In this document: piece by piece, positions 5,764 through 60,794 of the stretch | How positions within the stretch are numbered: position 1 is the first letter of the stretch | Layout of the letters: every line of letters starts with the position of its first letter | Assembly (NCBI RefSeq): GCF_018129995.1 | Contig: NZ_JAFCKS010000001.1 | Coordinates: forward strand, 1,399,001-1,463,000 | DNA from: Bradyrhizobium sp. SZCCT0153 | GTDB lineage: Bacteria > Pseudomonadota > Alphaproteobacteria > Rhizobiales > Xanthobacteraceae | DNA length: 64,000 nt | Reading direction: 5' to 3' | The notes under the pieces: generated by a model | What the model saw: only the letters and a program-made list of their open reading frames with translations | Databases searched by the model: none | Told to the model about the DNA's origin: nothing | Program-made: the position numbers and the translations under genes

Positions 5764-6679
5764 CGGCTGGCTCATCGAATTCGGCGAGAGCCTTGCGCAT
5801 GGTCTCGACCAGATCCAGCGCCACCGGCGAGGGGCTGCGCTGCGCCGGAAAGACCGCCGAGAACTCGAAGTCTATGCGCGGCAGGAAGCGGCGCACGACG
5901 ACGCCGCGGGTGGAGAATTCCTGCGCGGTGAAGGGATCGCAGATCGCAACGCCAAGCCCCGACGACACCATGCCGCACATGATCTCCGACAGCGCGGTCT
6001 CCACCCGCAGCACGCGGCGGACGTCGTGACGGTGGAAGATCTGGTCGACGAGGTGCCGGCTCGACGATCCCGCCGACAGCGAGATGAACGTCTCGCCCTC
6101 GAAATCGCGCGGCTCCAGAACTTGTTTCTCGGCGAGGCGATGACCCGTCGGCAGCACCGCGACGCGCGCCGGCGCCGGCAATCTCTGGCTCGGCAAGCCG
6201 GAATGCGCGATCGGCACCTCGGCAAAACCGACGTCACACTGGTTGTTCAGCACCCAATCGACCACGATCGGCGAGATCACGCCGAAGAAGGCGAGGTTGA
6301 GGTTGGGTCGCTCTTTCAAAAAATGCCCTGTGAGCCGTGGCAGATAGCCGTTCGACAACGCCGGAAGTGCGGCGATCCGCAGCGAGCCGGTGCGGCGGCC
6401 ACGGATTTCTTCGGCCGCCGCCGTGATGCGTTCGAGGCCGACAAAGGAGCGCTCGACTTCGGTATAGAGCGCCATCGCTGCGGCGGTCGGCACCAGGCCA
6501 GTGCCACGCCGCTCGAACAGCTCCATCTTCAGCAGCGCCTGCAGGTCGCGCAGCAACCGGCTGACCGCCGGCTGTGTCACGGTCATTAGCGCCGCCGCCT
6601 CGGTGACGCTGCCGGTCAGCATGGTCGCGCGGAAGGCCTCCACCTGCCGCGAATTGATCCGGGCCATCTCAACTTCCAT
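5753..6679 (-). CDS. LysR-family transcriptional regulator
   Basis: 308 residues. The N-terminal winged helix reads INSRQVEAFRATMLTGSVTEAAALMTVTQPAVSRLLRDLQ; the C-terminal periplasmic-binding-like effector domain follows from about residue 90. MARINSRQ, four codons downstream, is an equally good start. It is divergent from the polyamine-type transporter operon starting at 6943 and convergent with the amidohydrolase. By position it is the probable activator of the 6943-15091 operon, with the ligand likely an amine or opine taken up by that system (inference). Confidence 0.92.
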   Translation of the reverse strand: MEVEMARINSRQVEAFRATMLTGSVTEAAALMTVTQPAVSRLLRDLQALLKMELFERRGTGLVPTAAAMALYTEVERSFVGLERITAAAEEIRGRRTGSLRIAALPALSNGYLPRLTGHFLKERPNLNLAFFGVISPIVVDWVLNNQCDVGFAEVPIAHSGLPSQRLPAPARVAVLPTGHRLAEKQVLEPRDFEGETFISLSAGSSSRHLVDQIFHRHDVRRVLRVETALSEIMCGMVSSGLGVAICDPFTAQEFSTRGVVVRRFLPRIDFEFSAVFPAQRSPSPVALDLVETMRKALAEFDEPAVSR

Positions 6680-34390: not shown

Positions 34391-34475
34391 TCGAAGTGCC
34401 TCGCCGGGTTCCGCTCAAGAAGGCCCTCCTTGGCACGATCTGCCGGATTTTTCTTGCAAATTTTTTCCGCAGCCC

Positions 34476-34502
34476 TGTCGGGGCGGGGCATATTGGATCG
34501 TC
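34476..34502 (+). promoter_or_regulatory. ECF42-type promoter upstream of DGPF-sigma operon
   Basis: TGTCGG (34476-34481), exactly 17 bp, CGTC (34499-34502), 32 bp before the DGPF gene start. It matches the published ECF42 pattern (TGTCGA-like -35, CGTC-like -10). A GCAAA-TTTTTTCC stretch precedes the -35. One of four identical-architecture sites in this window; implies autoregulation of the sigma factor. Confidence 0.75.
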
Positions 34503-34534
34503 TTCAAAACAAGAGTTCGGGGAAGGTACTGCCC

Positions 34535-34903
34535 ATGCTTTACGCGATCCTTTGCTATCACGATGAAGACTTCGTCGGCTCCTGGAGCAAGGACCAGGAT
34601 GAAGCCGTGATGAAGAAGCTCGCCGTGGTGCAGGAAGGTCTCGCCAAGCAGGGCAGGCTCGGTCCGGTGGCGCGGCTGCTGCCGACCACGGCCGCGGCGA
34701 CGCTGCGCAAGGAGGACCCGCCGCTGGTGCTCGACGGGCCCTATGCGGAGACCAAGGAGCAGTTGCTCGGCTTCTACATCGTCGACTGCAAGAGCCTCGA
34801 CGAGGCGCTCGACGTTGCGCGCGACCTCGGCTCGGCCAATCCCGGCGGCGCCTATGAGGTGCGCCCCGTCGGCGTGTTCAGGCCCGGAGGAAATCTCACG
34901 TGA
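34535..34903 (+). CDS. YciI-family DGPF-domain protein, partner of ECF42 sigma
   Basis: 122 residues, the only credible part of a much longer open frame, starting behind GGGGAAGG. The motif VLDGPYAETKEQLLGFYIVDC is the DGPF signature (here DGPY) of the YciI fold. DGPF proteins are genetically linked to ECF42 sigma factors across bacteria. The stop overlaps the sigma start by 4 bp (GTGA), so the two are translationally coupled. Biochemical role is unknown; the YciI fold suggests a small catalytic or binding dimer. Confidence 0.92.
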   Translation: MLYAILCYHDEDFVGSWSKDQDEAVMKKLAVVQEGLAKQGRLGPVARLLPTTAAATLRKEDPPLVLDGPYAETKEQLLGFYIVDCKSLDEALDVARDLGSANPGGAYEVRPVGVFRPGGNLT

Positions 34904-36201
34904 GCGAGGCCGACACCGCCTGGATCGAGACCGCGCTGACCTCGGCGCGACCGCAGGCGGTAGGCGCGCTGCTCCGTTATTTCCGCGATCTCGACACCGC
35001 CGAAGAGGCCTTCCAGAACGCCTGCCTGCGCGCGCTGAAGACCTGGCCGCAGAACGGGCCGCCGCGCGATCCCGCGGCCTGGCTGATCCTGGTCGGCCGC
35101 AACGTCGCGATCGACGAGGTGCGCCGCGCCCGCAAGCAGACGCCGTTGCCGGAGGACGACCAGGCCATCTCCGACCTCGACGATGCCGAAGGTGCGCTCG
35201 CCGAAAGGCTCGACGGCTCGCATTACCGCGACGACATCCTGCGGCTGATGTTCATCTGCTGCCATCCAGGTCTGCCGGCGACGCAGCAGATCGCGCTGGC
35301 GCTGCGCATCGTCTCCGGTCTCACCGTGAAGCAGATCGCGCGCGCCTTCCTGGTTTCGGACGCGGCGATGGAGCAGCGCATCACGCGCGCCAAGGCGAAG
35401 GTCGCGGAGGCCGGGACGCCGTTCGAGACGCCGGGCGCGGTCGAGCGCTCCGAGCGGCTCGCCGGTGTCGCCGCGATGATCTACCTGATCTTCAACGAGG
35501 GCTATTCGGCCAGCGGCGACACCGCAGAAATCAGAAAGCCGCTCTGCGAGGAGGCGATCCGGCTGGCGCGGCTGCTGCTGCGGCTGTTCCAGAGCGAGCC
35601 GGAGATCATGGGGCTCACGGCGCTCATCCTGCTGCAGCATGCCCGCAGCGCCGCGCGCTTTGCCGCGGACGGCACGCTGATCCTGCTGGACGACCAGGAC
35701 CGTTCGCTGTGGAACGGCACCATGATCGCGGAAGGCCTCGCGCTGATCGACAAGGCGATGCGCCACCGCCGCAGCGGGCCCTACCAGATCCAGGCTGCGA
35801 TCGCCGCGCTGCATGCGCGCGCAGCAACGCCGGAGGAAACCGACTGGGCCCAGATCGACCTGCTCTATGGTGCGCTGGAGGTGGTGCAGCCCTCGCCGGT
35901 GGTGACGCTCAACCGCGCGGTCGCGGTCTCCAAGGTGCGCGGACCGCAAGCCGCGCTCGACCTGATCGAGCCGCTGGCGCCGAAACTCGCCAGCTACTTC
36001 CATTTCTACGGCGTGCGCGGCGCCTTTCTGATGCAGCTCGGCCGCAGCGACGAAGCCCGCGTCGCCTTCGACCGCGCCATCGCTCTCGCCAACACGTCCG
36101 CGGAAGCCGCCCACATCCGCATGCATCTCGATCGCCTGATCCGGGACAGCCAGCCGAAGGGCGCCAATGGCGGCGCCAGGCAGGGCGCGAAGGCGAAGTA
36201 G
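34900..36201 (+). CDS. ECF42-type RNA polymerase sigma factor with C-terminal TPR-like extension
   Basis: 433 residues. Sigma region 2 covers about residues 10-80 (YFRDLDTAEEAFQNACLRALKTWPQNGPPRDPAAWL), region 4 about 115-175 (LRIVSGLTVKQIARAFLVSDAAMEQRITRAK). A C-terminal extension of ~230 residues (DUF6596/TPR-like, with IYLIFNEGYSA and VVTLNRAVAVSKVRGPQAAL) is diagnostic of the ECF42 group. GTG start overlapping the DGPF stop. No anti-sigma factor is encoded beside it, as is usual in this group, where the extension is thought to control activity. Confidence 0.94.
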   Translation: MSEADTAWIETALTSARPQAVGALLRYFRDLDTAEEAFQNACLRALKTWPQNGPPRDPAAWLILVGRNVAIDEVRRARKQTPLPEDDQAISDLDDAEGALAERLDGSHYRDDILRLMFICCHPGLPATQQIALALRIVSGLTVKQIARAFLVSDAAMEQRITRAKAKVAEAGTPFETPGAVERSERLAGVAAMIYLIFNEGYSASGDTAEIRKPLCEEAIRLARLLLRLFQSEPEIMGLTALILLQHARSAARFAADGTLILLDDQDRSLWNGTMIAEGLALIDKAMRHRRSGPYQIQAAIAALHARAATPEETDWAQIDLLYGALEVVQPSPVVTLNRAVAVSKVRGPQAALDLIEPLAPKLASYFHFYGVRGAFLMQLGRSDEARVAFDRAIALANTSAEAAHIRMHLDRLIRDSQPKGANGGARQGAKAK

Positions 36202-36215
36202 GCATACCGTCTCCG

Positions 36216-36300
36216 CCGTCATGCCCGGCTTGTCCCGCGCATCCATGCCCTCCGCCGGCACCGGGAACGTTGATGGCCGGGACAAGCCCGGCCATGACGG
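36216..36300. repeat. Long palindromic intergenic repeat (Bradyrhizobium-type)
   Basis: Left arm 36216-36237 and right arm 36278-36300 are near-perfect inverted copies built on CCGTCATG-CCCGG-CTTGTCCCG, with about 40 bp between. The sequence resembles a dispersed family abundant between genes in Bradyrhizobium. It lies between the sigma factor and the SRPBCC gene and may act as a terminator, separating the two ECF42-type promoters. Confidence 0.8.
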
Positions 36301-36324
36301 TCTTCAAAATTATTCATTTCGTCT

Positions 36325-36351
36325 TGTCGGGCGCAACCGGCTCTCTTCGTC
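36325..36351 (+). promoter_or_regulatory. ECF42-type promoter upstream of SRPBCC-VOC genes
   Basis: TGTCGG (36325-36330), 17 bp, CGTC (36348-36351), ending 26 bp before the SRPBCC start. A CAAAATTATTC stretch stands upstream, like the A/T-rich stretch before the other sites. Direct evidence that the sigma factor gene's neighbours form a separate transcription unit under the same promoter type. Confidence 0.75.
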
Positions 36352-36377
36352 CTAAGCCCGTATCCAGGGAGCCATTC

Positions 36378-36914
36378 ATGCTGAAAGCCATTGCCATCAT
36401 CGCCATCCTGCTCGCGGCCGGAATCGTGAGCGTACTCGTCTTTGCCTTGACGAAGCCCGACACATTCCGCGTCGAGCGCAGCCTCGCCGTGAAGGCGCCG
36501 GCCAATGCGATCTATCCCCTGGTTGCCGATTTCCATCGCTGGACGGCCTGGTCACCCTATGAGGGCCGCGATCCCGCGATGAAGCGCAGCTTCGGCGGAA
36601 CTGCGGAAGGAAAGGGCGCGACCTATGCGTGGGACGGCAACAACAACGTCGGCTCCGGTCATATGGAGATCCTCGAGGCCAGTGCGTCGTCAAGGCTTCG
36701 GATCAAGCTCGATTTCGAGCGTCCCTTCGAAGGCCACAACACCGCGGAGTTCACCTTTGTGCCGCAAGGCGATGCCACATTGGTCACGTGGGCGATGTCC
36801 GGCCCGGCCCCGATCCTGTCCAAGGTCATGCAGGTGTTCATCAATATGGACACCATGATCGGCAAGGATTTCGAGGCGGGCTTGGCCAGCCTGAAGAAGC
36901 TCACCGAGAAGTAG
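36378..36914 (+). CDS. SRPBCC-family protein with N-terminal membrane anchor
   Basis: 178 residues; only the last part of a long open frame is credible, starting at the ATG at 36378. A hydrophobic anchor (AIAIIAILLAAGIVSVLVFAL) is followed by a START/polyketide-cyclase-like domain: VKAPANAIYPLVADFHRWTAWSPYEGRDPAM and a C-terminal helix. The fold binds hydrophobic ligands; related genes in ECF sigma neighbourhoods are annotated as AHSA1/SRPBCC. Function unknown. Likely co-expressed with the VOC gene 41 bp downstream. Confidence 0.9.
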   Translation: MLKAIAIIAILLAAGIVSVLVFALTKPDTFRVERSLAVKAPANAIYPLVADFHRWTAWSPYEGRDPAMKRSFGGTAEGKGATYAWDGNNNVGSGHMEILEASASSRLRIKLDFERPFEGHNTAEFTFVPQGDATLVTWAMSGPAPILSKVMQVFINMDTMIGKDFEAGLASLKKLTEK

Positions 36915-36955
36915 CACCCTCACGGCCCAAGGAAGCGAAGAAGAGGAGAGAAACG

Positions 36956-37369
36956 ATGCTCAATCCCTATCTTTTCTATCAGGACACCTGCGAAGCGGCG
37001 TTCAATTATTACGCCAAGGCTCTCGGCGGCAAGATCGAAGCGATGATGCGTTCGTCGGAGGCGCCGCCGGACATGGCGGCCGCGCCCGGCCGCGAGAAGA
37101 CGATCATGCATGCGCGTATGTCGCTGCCCGGCGGCAGCGTGCTGATGGCCTCGGACGCGCCGCCCGAGCATTTTAAGAAAGCCCAGGGCTTTTCGGTCTC
37201 GCTGACGGTCGCGGACCCCGCGGAAGGCGAGCGCAAGTTCAACGCGCTCGCCGATGGCGGTAGCGTCACCATGCCCTTCAGCAAGACGTTCTGGGCCAAG
37301 GGCTTCGGCATGTGCGTCGACAAGTTCGGCATTCCCTGGATGGTGAACTGCCCCGCCGAGGGAATGTGA
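36956..37369 (+). CDS. VOC-family protein (PhnB/glyoxalase-like)
   Basis: 137 residues behind an AGGAGAG site. NPYLFYQDTCEAAFNYYAKALGGKIEAMM is the start of PhnB-like members of the vicinal-oxygen-chelate fold, and FGIPWMVNCP is the usual C-terminal strand. Canonical metal ligands are not all recognisable, as is common for PhnB-like proteins. Such genes are frequent partners of ECF/DGPF clusters. Reaction unknown. Confidence 0.92.
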   Translation: MLNPYLFYQDTCEAAFNYYAKALGGKIEAMMRSSEAPPDMAAAPGREKTIMHARMSLPGGSVLMASDAPPEHFKKAQGFSVSLTVADPAEGERKFNALADGGSVTMPFSKTFWAKGFGMCVDKFGIPWMVNCPAEGM

Positions 37370-37468
37370 CGGACGCGATCGCCTGACGCGCGAACAGGTC
37401 ATCCCTCTCTTTGCCGTTGCGGGAGAGGGAGACTTGTAACGTGCGGCGGATCCGGCCCGCGTGCTCGC

Positions 37469-37822
37469 TCAGCGGACCGACCCGGTTACGTCGATTCCCG
37501 GTGACGGGCCTGACGGAACGCAGCGAGGGCAGATCACAAGCTTGGTGCCGAGCTGCCTGTCGTTTTCCGCTTCGATCTCGTCATGGACCACCCACCACGC
37601 CTCGGAGTACGGGCGCAAGGTGCCGAGCACTCTTTCCCGCTCCTGGTTCGAATTACGCTCCGCAGGAGCTTGGCTCGCCACACGACGCTTTGTGACGGAG
37701 GGTCGATTCGGATCCTGACCGAGGCCGTCCCATGCAATCGGACGGCGCTCCTGCGCAGGCGCGACTGCGCATCCCATCAGCGTTGCGCAAAAAGTAAGCA
37801 AGATGAAGCCGTGTCGCATCAT
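37469..37822 (-). CDS. Small putative lipoprotein, unknown function
   Basis: 117 residues from MMRHG. An N-terminal hydrophobic stretch ends in LMGC with Cys18, a lipobox-like site, followed by a charged, Arg-rich mature part with a WWVVHDEIEAEND segment and two cysteines (ICPRC). I do not recognise the family. The plus-strand frames across this stretch are Arg/Pro-rich shadows. The start is uncertain: ten codons upstream is also possible but destroys the signal. Confidence 0.6.
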   Translation of the reverse strand: MMRHGFILLTFCATLMGCAVAPAQERRPIAWDGLGQDPNRPSVTKRRVASQAPAERNSNQERERVLGTLRPYSEAWWVVHDEIEAENDRQLGTKLVICPRCVPSGPSPGIDVTGSVR

Positions 37823-38106
37823 GGCGGACCCCTGGTGCGGTACGCGACACACAAACTCCGCATGCGGATACTTGCATCGTGACCGTTAAATGGAACCTAA
37901 GGGAAACGCGTGGCCGGAATGGCTGAATATGATTCTTGCTCTGACATCACATTGCGAGAGCAGTGCGGCCGCTTCGTGAAATGATGTGGACCGCATCGCA
38001 CAACAACTGGCGCAATATTGGGCTGTGAACCCCGAGACAGAATCGCTAATAATTTCTTCATAAATTCTACAAACTGGGGTGGGCGTAACTTGGAAGGGAG
38101 CGACCG

Positions 38107-38199
38107 ATGGCGGCGGCGCTACAAATCAATTTTGCACTTTGGGGCATGCTCATCTGCGCGAGTCTGGAATTGGCGCAGGCGATCCAGAGGCTCTATTAG
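38107..38199 (+). CDS. 30-residue putative membrane microprotein
   Basis: ATG at 38107 stands six bases after a near-ideal ribosome-binding site (GGAAGGGAG, 38092-38100). The product begins MAAALQINFALWGM, continues with a hydrophobic LICASLELAQ and ends IQRLY before TAG: one short transmembrane or amphipathic helix. The stretch upstream (38042-38072) is unusually A/T-rich with -10-like boxes, as expected of a promoter. It lies in an otherwise empty gap between a lipoprotein gene and a tail-anchored protein gene. Not recognisable as a known family. Confidence 0.5.
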   Translation: MAAALQINFALWGMLICASLELAQAIQRLY

Positions 38200-38254
38200 G
38201 ATTAGGGCCTGACCAGGCGCGAGACCGGCGCAATCTTGCCAGCCCGCTTGCGTG

Positions 38255-38689
38255 CTAGCTCACGAGCAGTGCGATGAGCGTGAAGCTGACACTTGCGATC
38301 ACGATCATCGAGACGATGTAGTTGCGCGGCTGAGCCGTACGCGCGGGCGGTCGCTGCCGTCGCGGTGGCTCGCTGATTTGCCGGACCGGCTCCGTCGGTG
38401 CGCCCCCGGCCTCTGCGCCCGAGCCGATATATTTCACATAAAGCTCGAGCAGTCGCAGCTCGGACGCCAAATCCATCAGGCCCTCGCGGTCGCGCCGCGA
38501 CAGCAATTCGAATTCGACGGTTTCTTCGGAGCTCAGTTGGCCAAGGACGATGCGTCCCCGGTCCGAGAGGCGGTAGTGGAAATCGAGGGGCTGCATAGCC
38601 TGCGACCCGTTTGAAAATGAGTAATCCCGAAAATGCGGAGCCATCGTAGTCTGCGACCACTGCTGGGATTGTGACGGCCCCGCGGCCAT
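38255..38689 (-). CDS. Hypothetical tail-anchored protein
   Basis: 144 residues. The centre has FHYRLSDRGRIVLGQLSSEETVEFELLSRRDREGLMDLASELRLLELYVKYIG, probably helical. A Pro/Arg-rich linker follows, and a single C-terminal membrane helix (YIVSMIVIASVSFTLIALLVS) ends the protein. This topology implies a cytosolic domain anchored by its tail. ATG codons at 38644 and 38596 (MQPLDFHY) are plausible starts, and the first ~30 residues are doubtful. Family not recognised. Confidence 0.62.
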   Translation of the reverse strand: MAAGPSQSQQWSQTTMAPHFRDYSFSNGSQAMQPLDFHYRLSDRGRIVLGQLSSEETVEFELLSRRDREGLMDLASELRLLELYVKYIGSGAEAGGAPTEPVRQISEPPRRQRPPARTAQPRNYIVSMIVIASVSFTLIALLVS

Positions 38690-38886
38690 CGCGATCCGGC
38701 AGCGGCCTCAATCTGGACGGCACCATCATAGAGATTCAGGAAAGGCCGGAAACCGCATAAATTTGGCAGGCATTGCGAAGCGCTTGAGCGAATTTGGCAC
38801 CCGCAGAGCCGGAATATCGCGAGATTGCCTAATCGTCGGACAGCGGCGGATGCAACATGGTCAGGCTGCGCGGACTCGCCTGATCC

Positions 38887-39324
38887 TCACCGGCAGCGCG
38901 GATAGATTGCGGCGAGGTCGCGCCCCTTCAACAAAAGCAGCCGCGACGAGAGGCCACCGCGGCGGCTGATCCAGTCGCGCACCGGACCGGGATAGGCTTC
39001 CAGCACCGCGTCGGATGCTTCCGGCTCGGCATAGAAGCGTCCATGCCGGTCGACCGAGCGCGCTGCATGGAAGCCGAGCACGGCCCGCTTCGTGACGCAG
39101 ATGCGCTCACCCGGCACGATGCTCAGCACCAGCGTGCAGGCGGAGAGGCAGGGACCGTCGATCACCACGCGCTCGCCGCTCTCGCGCACCTTCTCGAACA
39201 AATCGAGGAATGGTCCGACCCGTCCGCCCGGCGACTGGATGATGCGGATTTCGGCTGACGCCGGTGCCGAGGCGAGGATGGTCGCTGCGAGCGTCAGGGC
39301 TTTGAGCAGGAACACGCGTCGCAT
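38887..39324 (-). CDS. Exported ClpP/crotonase-fold-like protein (COG3904 type)
   Basis: 145 residues starting MRRVFLLKAL; the longer frame upstream is Arg/Ser-rich noise. A signal peptide ends ASAPASA. The mature part has IIQSPGGRVGPFLDLFEKVRESGERVVIDGPCLSACTLVLS then RAVLGFHAARS. Ser61 in the CLSAC turn and His86 in GFHAA occupy the places of the ClpP nucleophile and histidine. Hydrolase activity is therefore possible in the periplasm but unproven; the Asp of a triad is not obvious. Monocistronic or with the SDR 34 bp upstream on the same strand. Confidence 0.75.
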   Translation of the reverse strand: MRRVFLLKALTLAATILASAPASAEIRIIQSPGGRVGPFLDLFEKVRESGERVVIDGPCLSACTLVLSIVPGERICVTKRAVLGFHAARSVDRHGRFYAEPEASDAVLEAYPGPVRDWISRRGGLSSRLLLLKGRDLAAIYPRCR

Positions 39325-39358
39325 GGAGCACTCCACAAGCTCGATCCCTGCAAATAAT

Positions 39359-40147
39359 CTATCCGTTCCGGCGCTGCCCGCGCAACGTCGGCAGGCCGAT
39401 GCCCGCCGCATCGAAGCCGCCATCGACGGCCAAAATCTGGCCGGTGATGTAGCTCGATCGGTCCGAGCACAGGAAAAAGATCGCTTCGGCGAGTTCCTCT
39501 TCCAGGCCGTAGCGGTTGAGCGGAACGGCGTCGTGATAGTCGGCGCGGATCTCGGGGGTGTGTACCTGCTTCGCCATCGCGGTGTCGACCGGCCCCGGCG
39601 CGACCGCATTGACGCGGATGTTGAGGGCGGCGAGCTCGACCGCGAGCTGCTTGGTGAGATGCGCGAGACCCGCCTTGCTGGTGCCGTAGGCCGAACGCAG
39701 TGTCGAGGCGCGCACCGCCGAGATCGAGGTGATGTTGACGATGGCGCCGCCATTGCCGTCGCGCATCAGCGGCACCGCCGCCTTGGTGCAGAGGAACGGG
39801 CCGGTGAGGTTGACCGCCATGATCCTGTTCCAATCGGCGTCGCTGGTCTCCAGCACCGGCGCGAACACGGCGACGCCGGCGTTGTTGACGAGGGCATCGA
39901 GCCGGCCGAAGCGGCTCATGACCGCGGCCATCGCAGCTCCCACGGCCGCTGCGTCGGAGACGTCGCAGGTGATCGCCAGAGTCGCCTCGGCCTGGCCGAT
40001 CCCGGCGACCGCGCGGCCGAGCAGCTCGCCCTCGACGTCGAGCAGCGCCACGCGCCAGCCCTCGGCCAGGAACTTCTTCGCGGTCGCAAGCCCGATGCCG
40101 CGCGCGGCTCCGGTGACGAGGGCGATTTTTTGCGGGGCTTGCGGCAT
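39359..40147 (-). CDS. SDR-family oxidoreductase
   Basis: 262 residues from MPQAPQKIALVTG; GTG at 40192 would add 15 residues. The set is complete: GAARGIGLA, LVNNAGVAV, the catalytic Ser-Tyr-Lys (YGTSK) and VAPGPVDTAMAK. C-terminal ITGQILAVDGGFDAAG is the usual NAD(P)-SDR tail. Alcohol/ketone or sugar substrate unknown. Same strand as the ClpP-like gene, 34 bp apart. Confidence 0.92.
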   Translation of the reverse strand: MPQAPQKIALVTGAARGIGLATAKKFLAEGWRVALLDVEGELLGRAVAGIGQAEATLAITCDVSDAAAVGAAMAAVMSRFGRLDALVNNAGVAVFAPVLETSDADWNRIMAVNLTGPFLCTKAAVPLMRDGNGGAIVNITSISAVRASTLRSAYGTSKAGLAHLTKQLAVELAALNIRVNAVAPGPVDTAMAKQVHTPEIRADYHDAVPLNRYGLEEELAEAIFFLCSDRSSYITGQILAVDGGFDAAGIGLPTLRGQRRNG

Positions 40148-40336
40148 CGGCTGATCTGTCCTGTGTCGAAAAGGCTGGTCGTGCGTGAGCACGCCTTCCT
40201 TTTACTTCGCTTTCATGCCGGCGAGGAAGACCAGATCATACCCCTCGAGCGAATGCGTCTGCGCGGACGATCCACGTCCGTCACCCTGCGAGGCTCACCG
40301 TGCTGCGCACGGCGAGTGCGGGTGCACAGTTCTTGC

Positions 40337-42001
40337 CTATGACAGCTCCGCCGAGGCGCGCTGCATGTTGGCCGACATGTCCGAGGTCACGATGCTCTGC
40401 TCCTCGACCGCGGCGGCGGTGGAGGCGATGAACTCGTTGACGCCGGCGATCGCAACCTTGATCGCGGTGAGCGAGCTTGCCACGTCGCCGGAGATGGTGT
40501 TCAGCGCGTCGATCTCGGAGGTGATGGTGTCGGTTGCCTGCTTGGCCTGGTTGGCGAGGCTCTTCACCTCGGAGGCGACCACCGCGAAGCCGCGGCCGGC
40601 CTCGCCCGCGCGCGCCGATTCGATCGTGGCGTTGAGCGCGAGCAGGTTGATCTGGCCGGTGATGCCGGAAATCATCTCGACGATGCCGCTCATCGCCTGC
40701 GCCGCCGTGTTCAGCCGCTGCGCCTGGCCGTCCGCGGCCTCGACGCGGGTGGTCGCGACCTTGGAGGTCTCGCGCGACTTCGCCATGGTTTCGGAGATCT
40801 CGCGGATCGAGGCGCTCATCTGCTCGCTGCCGGCCGCGACCGCCTCTATCAGTCCGCGCGCATTGTCGGCCTTCTTGCGGCCGATCGCCTGCGCGGTGAT
40901 GTCGGTGGCGTATTTCACCACCTTGTACGGCCTGCCGTTGAGGTCGAGGATCGGATTGTAGGAGGCCTGGATCCATATCTCGCGGCCGCCCTTGGCGATG
41001 CGCTTGTATTCGGCGGCCTGGTATTCGCCGCGGTTGAGCGTCTCCCAGAACTGGCGGTAGGACGCCGCGTTCTTCTCATCCGGCTCGACGAACATGGAGT
41101 GGTGCCGCCCCTTGATCTCCTCCAGCGAATAGCCCATCGCCTTGAGGAAGTTCTCGTTGGCGGTGCGGATCGTCCCGTCCATGTTGAACTCGATCACCGC
41201 CTGCGATTTCTGGATCGCGGCGAGCTGACCGTCATTGTCGGCCGCCTTCATCTTCTGCGCTGTGACGTCGGTTGCGAACTTGACCACCTTGAACGGCTTG
41301 CCGGTCTCGTCGAGGATCGGGTTGTAGGTCGCCAGGATCCAGATCTCCTTGCCGCCCTTGCCGAGCCGCTTGTATTCGGCAGCCTCGAACTCGCCGCGGT
41401 TCAGCTTGGCCCAGAACGCGGCATAGGCCGCGTCGGCGCGGTCCTCGGGCGTCACGAACATGCTGTGGTGCTTGCCCTGGATCTCGTCGAGCGAATAGCC
41501 CATCGCGCCCAGGAAGTTCTCGTTGGCGGTGAGGATGGTGCCGTCCATCTTGAATTCGATCACGGCCTGCGCACGGTTGACTGCGGCGATCTTGCCGGCA
41601 TCCTCCATGGTCTTGACCTTGTACGCCGTGATGTCGGTGGCGAACTTGATGAAGCTGATCACCTTGCCGCTCGGGTCGCGCAGCGGCGCGTAGGAGGCGT
41701 GGACCCAGACCTCCTTGCCGTTCTTGCCGAAGCGCTTGTATTGCGTGGTCTGGAATTCGCCCCGGTTCAGGCTGGCCCAGAAGTCGCGATAGCGGGCGCT
41801 CTCGCGTTCGGCCGGGCTGACGAAGATGCTGTGATGCTTGCCCTTGATCTCCGAGAGCGTATAGCCGCTCATCCTGAGGAGATTTTCATTGGCATCGAGA
41901 ATGGTGCCGTCAAGGCCGAATTCGATCACGGCCTGCGAGCGATCGAGCGCTTCGACTTCCGCGATCGCGTGTCGGGTCTTGCTGCTTTGGAAATTGAACA
42001 C
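40337..42001 (-). CDS. Cytosolic methyl-accepting protein with three tandem PAS domains
   Basis: 554 residues from a GTG at 42001 preceded by GGAG with a 6-base spacer; this start gives [10 protein letters not shown], better than the longer frame. Three near-identical PAS-PAC units begin at [38 protein letters not shown] and [19 protein letters not shown], each about 120 residues with a FATDIT/YATDIT end. A short C-terminal methyl-accepting domain carries [36 protein letters not shown]. No membrane segment: probably an intracellular redox/energy or aerotaxis sensor. The PAS repeats look recently duplicated. Confidence 0.93.
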
Positions 42002-42328
42002 GTGATGCTCCGCGCAATGTTCTTCGGAGCGAAGCGGCGGGGTCGCCGCGCCGTCGCGCCTGCTTAGAAAAGTTGCACGAGCGTGTTGAGCAATTGTAAA
42101 CCCTTGCAGCAGTTTGCGCCTGTTCCGTAGTTCCACGTGCGCGGCCATGTCGCTCTGGTTGCAGGCATTCCGGATTCATGTGCACAGCGGAGTTCATAGG
42201 CCGGGCAGTATTTGTACGGAGCAGATCGCAATATTTTTCGCGTCGCGGTGCCCGGAATACTCGTGCGCGATGTCGGCTCGGCCGCGCCTCGATCGTCTTC
42301 AGGACGATGTTGCTCACGGAACAAATCG
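42002..42328. other. 327-bp intergenic region with an ECF42-type promoter
   Basis: Divergent gap between the PAS chemoreceptor and the SnoaL-like gene. Apart from the promoter at 42271-42297, open frames here are short and of poor composition. I see no gene. Confidence 0.6.
42271..42297 (+). promoter_or_regulatory. ECF42-type promoter upstream of SnoaL-like gene
   Basis: TGTCGG (42271-42276), 17 bp, CGTC (42294-42297), 31 bp before the start at 42329. The bases around the -10, GATCGTCTTC, are identical to those of the site in front of the sigma operon (34497-34506). Confidence 0.72.
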
Positions 42329-42691
42329 ATGACCGACCCCGAGCGCCTGATTCGAGACCTCTTCGCCGCCTATCTCGGCAACGACCGGCAACGGGTCGCC
42401 GACGCACTGGCGGACGATTTTCGCTTCACCAGCCCGTTCGACGACGACCTCGACAAGGCGGCCTATTTCGGGCGCTGCTGGAAGGACACCGGCTGGATCG
42501 CGCGGCACGACATCGAGCGGATTTTCGTCCGGGGCGACGAGGCCTTTGTCACCTATCTCTGTCTGGCGACGGATGGCAGGAGCTTTCGCAACACGGAGTT
42601 CTTCAGCTTCGCCGGCGGCAAGGTTCGCCGTATCGAAGTCTATTTCGGCGCTGCCCGGCAGGATGGGCGCTTCCTGCCGCAGTCGCGCTAG
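42329..42691 (+). CDS. SnoaL-like / NTF2-fold protein
   Basis: 120 residues from MTDPERL. RDLFAAYLGNDRQRVADALADDFRFTSPFDDDLDKAAYFGRCW is the typical first half of SnoaL-like NTF2-fold proteins, followed by the beta-sheet with FVTYLCLATDGRSFRNTEFFSFAGGKVRRIEVYFG. Many such small proteins accompany ECF sigma and YCII genes as uncharacterised stress-response enzymes or ligand binders. Own ECF42-type promoter 31 bp upstream. Confidence 0.9.
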   Translation: MTDPERLIRDLFAAYLGNDRQRVADALADDFRFTSPFDDDLDKAAYFGRCWKDTGWIARHDIERIFVRGDEAFVTYLCLATDGRSFRNTEFFSFAGGKVRRIEVYFGAARQDGRFLPQSR

Positions 42692-42720
42692 CGGCCGGCG
42701 CAAAATAATTCCCGACAGCC

Positions 42721-42747
42721 TGTCGGTTCCGTCAGGGTTGGTTCGTC
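42721..42747 (+). promoter_or_regulatory. ECF42-type promoter upstream of second DGPF gene
   Basis: TGTCGG (42721-42726), 17 bp, CGTC (42744-42747); the leader to the start at 42859 is about 105 bases. The upstream stretch GCAAAATAATTCCCGACAGCC resembles the one at the sigma operon promoter. Confidence 0.75.
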
Positions 42748-42858: not shown

Positions 42859-43263
42859 ATGCGATTCATGATGCTGATGATCCCGCTCGGCTACGAGACC
42901 GCGCCGCCCGACGTTCAACTCGATCCCGAGCGGGTCGCGGCGATGATGCGCTACAACGAGGTGCTGAAGGACGCGGGCGTGCTGATCACGCTCGACGGCC
43001 TGCATCCGCCGTCGATGGGCGCGCGCGTCTCGTTTGCGGCCGGCGAGCCGCTCGTGACCGATGGTCCCTTCACTGATGCCAAGGAAGTTTTGGGCGGCTA
43101 TTGGATGATCGAGGTTGCCTCGCGCGCCGAGGCGATTGCCTGGGCCAGGAAGTGCCCGGCCTCGCCGAACGAAATCATCGAGATCCGCCAGGTGCAGGAG
43201 ATGAGCGACTTTCCGCCCGACCTGCAGGAGGCCGCCGCCGGTTTCGGCGATCTGAAGAGGTAA
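42859..43263 (+). CDS. YciI-family DGPF-domain protein, second copy
   Basis: 134 residues; ATG at 42859 is six bases after AAGGA and is preferred over the ATG at 42853. VTDGPFTDAKEVLGGYWMIEVASRAEAIAWARKCP carries the intact DGPF motif. It is a paralogue of the sigma-linked protein at 34535 but has no sigma gene beside it. The shared promoter type links it to the same sigma factor. Probably co-transcribed with the YCII-like gene 58 bp downstream. Confidence 0.92.
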   Translation: MRFMMLMIPLGYETAPPDVQLDPERVAAMMRYNEVLKDAGVLITLDGLHPPSMGARVSFAAGEPLVTDGPFTDAKEVLGGYWMIEVASRAEAIAWARKCPASPNEIIEIRQVQEMSDFPPDLQEAAAGFGDLKR

Positions 43264-43321: not shown

Positions 43322-43684
43322 ATGAGCACCGACACCTATCTCGCCGTTTTCCTCGGCAGCAAGACCAGCCCCAAATGGGCCGCGTGGAACGCGATGCCCG
43401 AGGCCGAGCGCAAGGCGAAGGAGCAGGCGGGCATTGCGGGCTGGAAGGGCTGGGTCGAAAAGCACCAGGGCGCGATCCAGGCCATGGGAGGTCCGCTCGG
43501 CAAGACCAAGCAGGTCGATGGCAAGGGCATCGCCGACATCGCCAACGAGATGGGCGCCTTCACGGTGGTGCGCGCCGCGTCCCATGAAGCCGCGGCGAAG
43601 ATGTTCGAGAACCATCCGCACTTCGCGATCTTCCCCGGCGAACGCGTCGAGATCATGCCGGTCCTGCCGATCCCGGGCGGCTAG
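43322..43684 (+). CDS. YCII-related small protein
   Basis: 120 residues behind GGAGAG. WNAMPEAERKAKEQAGIAGWKGWVEKHQGAIQAMGGPLGKTKQV and HEAAAKMFENHPHFAIFPGERVEIMPVLPIPG match the YciI-like ferredoxin fold without a DGPF motif. Same cluster type as the other stress-linked small proteins. Function unknown. Confidence 0.88.
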   Translation: MSTDTYLAVFLGSKTSPKWAAWNAMPEAERKAKEQAGIAGWKGWVEKHQGAIQAMGGPLGKTKQVDGKGIADIANEMGAFTVVRAASHEAAAKMFENHPHFAIFPGERVEIMPVLPIPGG

Positions 43685-58871: not shown

Positions 58872-60794
58872 ATGAACGCCAATCTGCGCAATTTCGCCCT
58901 CTGGGTCATCATTGTCTTGCTGCTGTTGGCGTTGTTCACGCTCTTCCAGAATCCGGGTCAGCGCGCCTCCTCGCAGGACATCGCCTTCTCCCAGCTCCTG
59001 AGCGAAGTTGACCGCGGCAACGTGCGCGACGTCGTGATCCAGGGGCCGGACATCCACGGCACCTTCACGAACGGCTCGAGCTTCCAGACCTATGCGCCGA
59101 GCGACCCGACGCTGGTGAAGCGCCTCTATGACAGCAAGGTGCAGATCACCGCGAAGCCGCCCGGCGACAACGTGCCGTGGTTCGTCTCGCTGCTGGTCTC
59201 CTGGCTGCCCTTCATCGCGCTGATCGGCGTCTGGATATTCCTGTCGCGGCAGATGCAGGGCGGCGCCGGCAAGGCGATGGGCTTCGGCAAGTCGCGCGCC
59301 AAGATGCTCACCGAAGCGCATGGCCGCGTCACCTTCGAGGACGTCGCCGGCGTCGACGAGGCCAAGCAGGACCTGCAGGAGATCGTCGAATTCCTCCGCG
59401 ACCCCGGCAAATTCCAGCGCCTCGGCGGCCGCATTCCGCGCGGCGTTCTGCTGGTCGGCCCTCCCGGCACGGGCAAGACCCTGATCGCGCGTGCGGTCGC
59501 GGGCGAAGCCAACGTGCCGTTCTTCACCATTTCCGGTTCGGACTTCGTCGAGATGTTTGTCGGCGTCGGCGCCTCTCGTGTGCGCGATATGTTCGAGCAG
59601 GCCAAGAAGAACGCGCCCTGCATCATCTTCATCGACGAAATCGATGCGGTCGGTCGTCACCGTGGCGCCGGTCTCGGCGGCGGCAATGACGAGCGCGAGC
59701 AGACGCTGAACCAGCTGCTGGTCGAGATGGACGGCTTCGAAGCGAACGAGGGCGTGATCCTGATCGCCGCGACCAACCGTCCCGACGTGCTCGATCCCGC
59801 GCTGCTGCGTCCCGGCCGCTTCGACCGCCAGGTCGTGGTGCCCAATCCGGACGTCGTCGGCCGCGAGCAGATCCTCAAGGTTCACGTCCGCAAGGTGCCG
59901 CTGGCCCCCGATATCAACCTCAAGACCATCGCGCGCGGCACCCCGGGCTTCTCCGGCGCCGACCTGATGAACCTCGTCAACGAGGCCGCGCTGACCGCCG
60001 CCCGCCGCAACAAGCGAATGGTGACGCAGGCCGAGTTCGAAGAGGCCAAGGACAAGGTGATGATGGGCGCCGAGCGCAAGTCGCTCGTCATGACCGAGGA
60101 AGAGAAGCTGCTGACGGCCTATCACGAGGGCGGCCACGCCATCGTCGGCCTCAACGTCGTCGCGACCGACCCGATCCACAAGGCGACCATCATTCCGCGC
60201 GGCCGCGCGCTGGGCATGGTCATGCAGCTGCCTGAGCGCGACAAGCTGTCGATGTCGCTGGAGCAGATGACCTCGCGGCTCGCCATCATGATGGGCGGCC
60301 GTGTCGCCGAAGAGCTGATCTTCGGGCGCGAGAAGGTGACCTCCGGTGCGTCCTCCGACATCGAGCAGGCGACGCGCCTGGCCCGGATGATGGTGACGCG
60401 CTGGGGCCTGTCCGAGGCGCTCGGCACCGTCTCCTATGGCGAAAACCAGGACGAGGTTTTCCTCGGCATGTCGGTGTCGCGCACCCAGAACGCGTCGGAA
60501 GCGACGGTTCAGAAGATCGACACCGAGATCCGGCGCTTCGTCGAAGAAGGCTACAACGAAGCGACGCGCATTCTCACCGAGAAGCGCGCCGACCTCGAAG
60601 CGCTCGCCAAGGGCCTGCTCGAGTTCGAGACGCTGTCCGGCGACGAGATCGTCGATCTGCTCAAGGGCAAGAAGCCGAACCGTGAATCCGTGCTCGAGCC
60701 GACCACGCCGCGCGCCTCCGCCGTGCCCCCGGCCGGCAAGTCGCGCCCGCGGCCCGATCCGGATCCCGGCCTGGAGCCGCAGCCGCAGGCGTAA
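58872..60794 (+). CDS. ftsH: ATP-dependent zinc metalloprotease FtsH
   Basis: 640 residues. Two N-terminal membrane helices ([19 protein letters not shown] near residues 6-25; [20 protein letters not shown] near 106-125) flank a periplasmic loop. The AAA module has Walker A GPPGTGKT (about 196-203) and [11 protein letters not shown]. The zinc site is HEGGH (about 418-422). A disordered Pro-rich tail ends the protein. It degrades misfolded membrane proteins and short-lived regulators such as RpoH and LpxC in the inner membrane. Confidence 0.98.

Follow-up and report, generated by a model that had tools for sequence, protein, structure and literature searches.

We analysed a 64,000-nucleotide stretch of Bradyrhizobium sp. 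SZCCT0153 (contig NZ_JAFCKS010000001.1, positions 1,399,001 to 1,463,000; hereafter the window) that holds two clusters of small genes preceded by the promoter-like sequence TGTCGG-N17-CGTC. A sequence-only reading of this DNA had placed four such sites at 34476, 36325, 42271 and 42721, and had taken them for the local regulon of one extracytoplasmic function (ECF) sigma factor of the ECF42 group encoded in the first cluster. These coordinates proved right: all four sites are on the plus strand with a spacer of exactly 17, and Pfam agrees with the gene types expected behind them (YCII-sigma, SRPBCC-VOC, SnoaL_2 and YCII). The first site (-35 TGTCGG at 34476..34481, -10 CGTC at 34499..34502) precedes a gene for a 122-residue YCII/DGPF protein (YCII1, 34535..34903; PF03795, E = 1.2e-20), which overlaps by 4 bases the start of the gene for the 433-residue sigma factor (34900..36201). 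The second (36325..36330 and 36348..36351) precedes genes for a 178-residue SRPBCC/polyketide-cyclase-like protein (36378..36914; PF10604, E = 6.4e-13) and a 137-residue YjdN-like VOC protein (36956..37369), assigned by Pfam and matching NCBIfam PRK10148 at 87.7 bits, under the cut-off of 122; the two genes are probably cotranscribed. In the other cluster, the third site (42271..42276 and 42294..42297) lies before a gene for a 120-residue SnoaL-like protein (42329..42691; PF12680, SnoaL_2, E = 1.9e-8), and the fourth (42721..42726 and 42744..42747) before a gene for a second YCII/DGPF protein of 134 residues (YCII2, 42859..43263; PF03795, E = 1.2e-21) with an alternative ATG two codons upstream. 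A gene for a weak YCII-like protein of 120 residues (YCII3, 43322..43684; PF03795 at 20.4 bits, under the cut-off of 24) follows and is probably cotranscribed with YCII2. All of these genes are on the plus strand, and the -10 boxes, assigned by pattern match and conservation, are separated from the ATG by 32 (YCII1), 26 (SRPBCC), 31 (SnoaL) and 105 or 111 bases (the two possible ATGs of YCII2).

The window sigma factor has sigma2 and sigma4 (PF04542 and PF08281, both above cut-off) as its sole sigma domains, the architecture of an ECF factor, followed by a C-terminal extension with DUF6596 (PF20239; residues 186-287, E = 4e-34) and about 146 more residues, in line with the roughly 200-residue extension of ECF42 factors. 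It is 71% identical over 409 residues to the sigma factor at the Sinorhizobium meliloti RpoE10 locus. No anti-sigma gene adjoins it; by Pfam, the neighbours encode a 2-hydroxyacid dehydrogenase and the YCII, SRPBCC and VOC proteins. ECF42 factors of Streptomyces venezuelae (Sven_0747 and others) and ECF-10 of Pseudomonas putida have been described with a tetratricopeptide repeat (TPR) extension and a YCII neighbour, and control without an anti-sigma factor has been proposed for them (PMC8999054); the window sigma shares with them the long extension, in which the TPR match is weak, and the YCII neighbour. On its architecture, extension, YCII neighbour, homology to RpoE10 and the boxes published for RpoE10, we assign the window sigma to ECF42.

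The closest precedent is S. meliloti RpoE10, whose overexpression raised SMc01149-SMc01148 and SMb20475-SMb20474; six induced genes and three promoters were reported, and the listed promoters of the SMc01149, SMb20475 and SMc01151-rpoE10 operons all have TGTCGG-N17-CGTC (Table 1 of PMC6180224). A record of S. meliloti Ak57 shows YciI, sigma, SRPBCC and a next gene with the exact published SMc01151 and SMc01149 promoter sequences, the latter matching in position the window site at 36325. The Ak57 YciI protein is 62.5% identical to YCII1. Behind SRPBCC, the next Ak57 gene encodes a protein annotated as NTF2-family that aligns with the window VOC at 30%; between the two SRPBCC proteins, BLAST gave no hit at 1e-3. 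The systems thus share a YciI-sigma operon followed by SRPBCC and one more gene, a motif before each operon and a distant target operon. They differ in that the Bradyrhizobium genome has 12 promoter-placed exact sites and the additional SnoaL/YCII-YCII cluster, and the available text of PMC6180224 does not mention glutathione S-transferase (GST), AHSA1, MFS or Ku targets for RpoE10. Within the genus, Bradyrhizobium japonicum has 17 ECF sigma factors in nine families, and the EcfQ, EcfF, EcfG and EcfS described there are different from the window sigma (PMC3420878); the main text of that paper does not contain the term 'ECF4'. Our literature search, many subscription papers lying outside its reach, turned up no description of an ECF42 regulon in Bradyrhizobium. 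Among the records compared, CP090106.1 of S. meliloti (L429) is titled pSymB yet spans 3.7 megabases with dnaA and rpsT, and so looks like a mislabelled chromosome. On a Phyllobacterium zundukense plasmid (L430), a 27-base site occurs in two identical copies, at 6279 and 6666, downstream of a YciI-ECF42 operon, each copy before a gene annotated as NTF2-family; a target and its promoter may have been duplicated recently.

Across the 7,415,067 bases of the genome (22 contigs, both strands), TGTCGG-N17-CGTC occurs 37 times, or about 2.5 times per million positions. The sequence-only reading had expected roughly one chance match per million, a rate that the genome exceeds about 2.5-fold; the earlier conclusion that four sites in 8 kb are far from chance stands, as 0.021 matches would be expected on the plus strand of this 8.27-kb segment at the genome density of the exact pattern (P for four or more, ~7e-9). 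Allowing spacers of 16-18 adds a fifth window match, at 60469 with a spacer of 18, which we treated as background; the resulting excess is modest (five matches against 0.98 expected, with five or more in 1 of 100 shuffles). Genome-wide, the same loose pattern gave 246 matches, mostly background, and we therefore used the exact pattern and TGTCGG-N17-CGTCYT (13 matches in this genome) instead. To judge placement, we trained our own codon-usage gene finder on eleven genes of the window. Of the 37 exact matches, 21 fell in genes and 12 in intergenic DNA no more than 120 bp from a gene start; the other 4 fitted neither class. In the scan proposed earlier, in which matches equally common inside genes were to count against a regulon, genic matches thus outnumber promoter-placed ones. 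Matches with the wrong spacer (N16 or N18, first megabase of contig C1) were promoter-placed in 0 of 27 cases and genic in 25 (Fisher P = 6e-4).

To assess conservation, we used the sigma protein as a query and took the best 80 of at least 578 named loci, of which 79 carry the label Bradyrhizobium and one Frankia (1.60 megabases in total). The exact pattern occurred 251 times on the gene strand and never on the other; among spacers of 8-27, the next highest counts were 41 and 48 on the gene and other strand, respectively. Six cluster genes account for most gene-strand matches, with 210 of the 251 lying no more than 300 bp upstream of one of them. Among orthologues with at least 60% identity and enough upstream DNA, 77 of 80 YCII1, 60 of 74 SRPBCC, 25 of 35 SnoaL and 46 of 70 YCII2 genes had an exact site no more than 250 bp upstream; for YCII2, the count rose to 61 of 70 within 1 kb. 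The sigma gene (0 of 80), VOC (1 of 71), YCII3 (1 of 68) and TetR (0 of 69) had almost no site of their own within 250 bp. Sites thus stand before first genes and nearly never before VOC, YCII3 or sigma, as expected of one promoter per operon. In alignments built without reference to the motif, identity to the window was 1.00 in core and 0.84 in spacer columns for YCII1, 0.92 and 0.46 for SRPBCC, 0.91 and 0.54 for SnoaL, and 0.86 and 0.49 for YCII2. The boxes are therefore conserved while three of the four spacers drift to about 50% identity.

Contrary to the earlier supposition, the regulon is not local: outside the window, the genome has eight more exact matches that are promoter-placed. By Pfam, the genes behind them encode two GST proteins (contigs C2 and C17), a YCII protein (C4), a VOC protein (C5), two AHSA1 proteins (C6 and C12), an MFS transporter (C12) and Ku (C1); the first seven are mostly of a detoxification type, and Ku belongs to DNA repair. 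Eight other genomes of the genus together have 112 matches to TGTCGG-N17-CGTCYT, of which 110 were fetched and 12 lie in genes. Of these 110 distinct sites, 72 precede a homologue (at least 55% identity) of one of the twelve own-genome targets: the two AHSA1 proteins (8 and 7), YCII of C4 (8), Ku (8), VOC (7), YCII1 (7), SRPBCC (7), the two GST proteins (7 and 2), MFS (5), YCII2 (5) and SnoaL (1). Some sites had no usable downstream sequence in the fetched stretch. Sites outside this tally include one before a VOC protein (MTSITPFLWF...) in four genomes, in one case back to back with GST. At L235 (G248 C12:825226-825396), two back-to-back sites between GST and VOC form a divergent pair of ECF42-type promoters. 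In five of the eight relatives (L211, L213, L230, L242 and L248), a site lies about 150 bp before a small protein, MIKALSAIAL..., with what appears by eye to be a hydrophobic start; none of the promoter-placed matches in the SZCCT0153 genome precedes this protein.

These promoters share a feature beyond the two boxes. Among 88 promoter-placed sites in the eight relatives, the bin 18-13 bases upstream of the -35 was 80% A/T, compared with 31-44% across the remaining nine bins; for 12 coding matches the figure was 32%. In the window, the corresponding tract before the YCII-sigma operon is aaattt at 34458..34463 on the plus strand. This pattern suggests an UP element touched by the polymerase alpha subunit, and it widens to the promoter type as a whole an earlier remark on CAAA stretches, which are indeed present upstream of the sites at 34476, 36325 and 42721, as is GATCGTCTTC at both the 34476 and 42271 sites. 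In the relatives, the YT behind CGTC had been specified in the search and so is no evidence.

Ku is the surprising part of the regulon. A motif-blind search of 40 genomes of the genus retained 30 Ku loci, and at 25 of these the exact site lies 29-39 bases ahead of the Ku start (site of the own copy, G000:C1:764646-764672). Across the 29 rows that reach 79% identity or more, the boxes are 0.97 identical, compared with 0.58 for the spacer and 0.56 for the rest. The AAC that follows the -35 is kept as well, giving TGTCGGAAC-N14-CGTC in 25 of 30 loci (L319, L320-L348) of this Ku paralogue; the same AAC is found in 7 of 64 other regulon members, six of them one GST. Its presence creates GGAAC, the -35 of EcfG, overlapping the site. 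The promoter of EcfG, the general-stress sigma factor, is GGAAC-N15-18-CGTT. It has also been given as GGAAC-N17-20-GTT, and Ku is among the EcfG-regulated genes of Sphingomonas melonis (PMC6599016). Neither form was found in any of the 30 Ku upstream stretches when exact forms alone were searched, so EcfG control by an exact motif was set aside, though the conserved AAC still allows for EcfG. Ku may accordingly be controlled by ECF42, be a diverged EcfG target or combine the two, and on these sequences we regard ECF42 control of Ku as an even bet. Among papers on Ku or non-homologous end joining in rhizobia, judged by title or the start of the abstract, nothing on ECF42 was found apart from PMC6180224. 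Separately, genus g25 has three genomes that contain an exact copy of the 29-base Bradyrhizobium Ku promoter as in L326 (G168:C6:408027, G229:C3:187748 and G243:C14:131174); G229 and G243 are not among the genomes with a PF20239 match. These copies hint that ku and its promoter moved together by horizontal transfer.

The genome encodes two sigma factors with PF20239, so the proposal of one sigma needed testing. The second ECF42 factor (C17:286588) lies with a YCII gene at G000:C17:285612-286887 (L428), and the window sites could be promoters for this paralogue, or common to both factors, which belong to the same family and read similar boxes with the same spacer in the same genome. Against this, the paralogue's own YCII gene carries TGTCGT-N17-CGAC. 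A motif could be read in the 160 bp examined at 57 of the 80 ECF42 loci that we fetched from the family: 24 TGTCGT/CGAC, 19 TGTCGG/CGTC, 8 TGTCGA/CGTC, 4 TGTCGT/CGTC, and one each of TGTCGA/CGAC and TGTCGA/CGCC. On a quick IQ-TREE tree of the sigma factors, the 57 readable loci require two changes at the sixth -35 base and three at the third -10 base. All 19 TGTCGG/CGTC loci fall in one 26-row clade, whose rows are 70-96% identical to the window sigma, and all 24 TGTCGT/CGAC loci in another clade of 30 rows that includes the paralogue; the window sigma's own row is outside that tree, and its clade was placed by identity. Promoter type thus tracks sigma clade, and the window sites are most likely served by the window sigma, which leaves the paralogue an improbable reader. 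The -35 given earlier for ECF42, TGTCGA, does not apply to this clade, in which it is TGTCGG, and was seen instead at loci of another clade. In this genome, TGTCGA-N17-CGTC has 14 matches and none is promoter-placed. TGTCGT-N17-CGAC was also tried as the signature of a second regulon: of its 30 matches, 4 were promoter-placed and 3 of these were copies of a palindromic repeat, leaving only the paralogue's own operon, whose promoter was the one that looked genuine. Several of the genome's TGTCGT...CGAC matches are palindromes of the type CCCGGCGAAGGCCGGGACGAC.

Co-occurrence points in the same direction. Across 296 family genomes, TGTCGG-N17-CGTCYT occurs at 0.90 per megabase in those with PF20239 and 0.25 in those without; outside the genus the densities are 0.72 and 0.25, compared with 0.17-0.20 for a reversed-pattern control. 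Among non-genus genomes with a single PF20239 hit and a placed locus (placed genomes with two or more hits were excluded), the window clade averages 0.91 per megabase (n = 9), compared with a near-background 0.21 for other clades (n = 19). The idea that the sites are chance matches in GC-rich DNA, or are conserved by common descent alone, draws on the 21 genic matches among 37, on the close relatedness of the loci compared and on a strand-biased control pattern; it fails to account for the absence of promoter-placed matches with the wrong spacer, for boxes kept beside spacers of about 50% identity and for the recurrence of the motif at unlinked loci, and we consider it extremely unlikely. Assignment to another ECF group such as ECF41 or EcfG, or to an operator, is very unlikely too. 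S. meliloti ECF41 uses a similar TGTCACA...CGTC (PMC6180224) and GGAAC overlaps the site in Ku copies, but the window -35 is TGTCGG, GGAAC-N15-18-CGTT is not found near any of the four sites, fixed orientation and 17-base spacing speak against an operator, and the S. meliloti match is to RpoE10, according to the same report (PMC6180224).

Several observations weigh against assigning the sites to the window sigma or limit how far the comparisons reach. A control pattern, CGTCGG-N17-CATC, was itself strand-biased in the 80 loci (62 against 3), so strand by itself is weak proof; the loci are close relatives, so their counts are not independent; and the site is absent within 250 bp of 14 of 74 SRPBCC, 10 of 35 SnoaL and 24 of 70 YCII2 orthologues. 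TPR_1 in the sigma extension scores 20.3 bits, below the Pfam cut-off of 27.8. Overexpression of RpoE10 brought no response from SMc01151 (YciI-rpoE10), and the SMc01151 motif lies across a putative start (PMC6180224), so autoregulation of the YCII-sigma operon is unproven. No promoter was readable in 160 bp at 23 of the 80 ECF42 loci, which were left out of the type counts, although four of these (L357, L358, L379 and L424) have near-matches by eye, one base or one spacer base off. The co-occurrence statistics ignore phylogeny; in genera g12, g16, g24, g25, g30, g32, g34 and g38, PF20239 brings no clear excess of sites, and in g7, g20, g26 and g40 the average is still 2.3-3.5 sites in genomes with no hit. 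Because the PF20239 search scored at most 15 candidates per genome, such absences are not firm. Two genomes outside the window clade, G043 and G095, have 6 and 3 sites. Within the first 185 alignment columns, no sigma2 residue separates CGAC from CGTC recognizers; just columns 94 and 96-98 (L387 numbering), read as lying between sigma2 and sigma4, split the groups, and with no separating sigma2 residue we claim no determinant of the -10 T/A difference.

Taking these points together, we think it very probable that the window sigma (34900-36201) is an ECF42 factor driving the four window units as well as two GST genes, YCII, VOC, two AHSA1-type SRPBCC genes, MFS and perhaps Ku. The earlier proposal that one ECF42-type sigma serves both clusters is borne out by strand, spacer, core-versus-spacer conservation, orthologous position, co-occurrence, clade match and the RpoE10 precedent, and the predicted regulon is well supported and larger than first thought. 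The compared sequences themselves show the sites, with their fixed architecture, strand and position, the selective conservation of these sites, and the agreement between promoter type and sigma clade. The holoenzyme would read an A/T tract, about 12 bases, TGTCGG, 17 bases and CGTC; transcription would start at the sites and depend on the window sigma. By analogy with the family (PMC8999054), the C-terminal extension, TPR-like and with YCII as a possible partner, may set sigma activity in place of an anti-sigma factor. The YCII-sigma operon may be autoregulated. The targets suggest that the signal could be a chemical stress or a small reactive compound handled by small enzymes.

The signal and role of ECF42 factors are poorly known, and a list of about 12 conserved targets (three YCII, three SRPBCC/AHSA1, two GST, VOC, SnoaL, MFS and Ku) in a genus with usable genetics opens the way to direct experiment. 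It raises the question of which stress would require both glutathione transfer and chemistry of the glyoxalase type, perhaps along with DNA end joining. Because promoter bases follow sigma clade, exchanges of sigma factors, or of two bases, offer a way to test promoter specificity. A broader idea, which we offer tentatively and would not favour over its negation, is that ECF42 clades have separate promoter codes in the last -35 and third -10 base with the 17-base spacer kept, that two paralogues in one genome read separate regulons, and that the Bradyrhizobium TGTCGG/CGTC clade runs a dispersed regulon joining small-molecule-handling enzymes with DNA end joining through Ku, whose TGTCGGAAC box may merge the ECF42 and EcfG -35 elements.

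Two other features of the window adjoin the clusters. An imperfect inverted repeat with 21-nucleotide arms (86% matching) lies at 36223-36292, between the sigma gene and the 36325 promoter. Between the two clusters, the minus strand carries what appears by eye to be a chemoreceptor-like gene (40337-42148), with three near-copies of a PAS-like stretch in its DNA; in many relatives only a distant match to it, elsewhere, was found.

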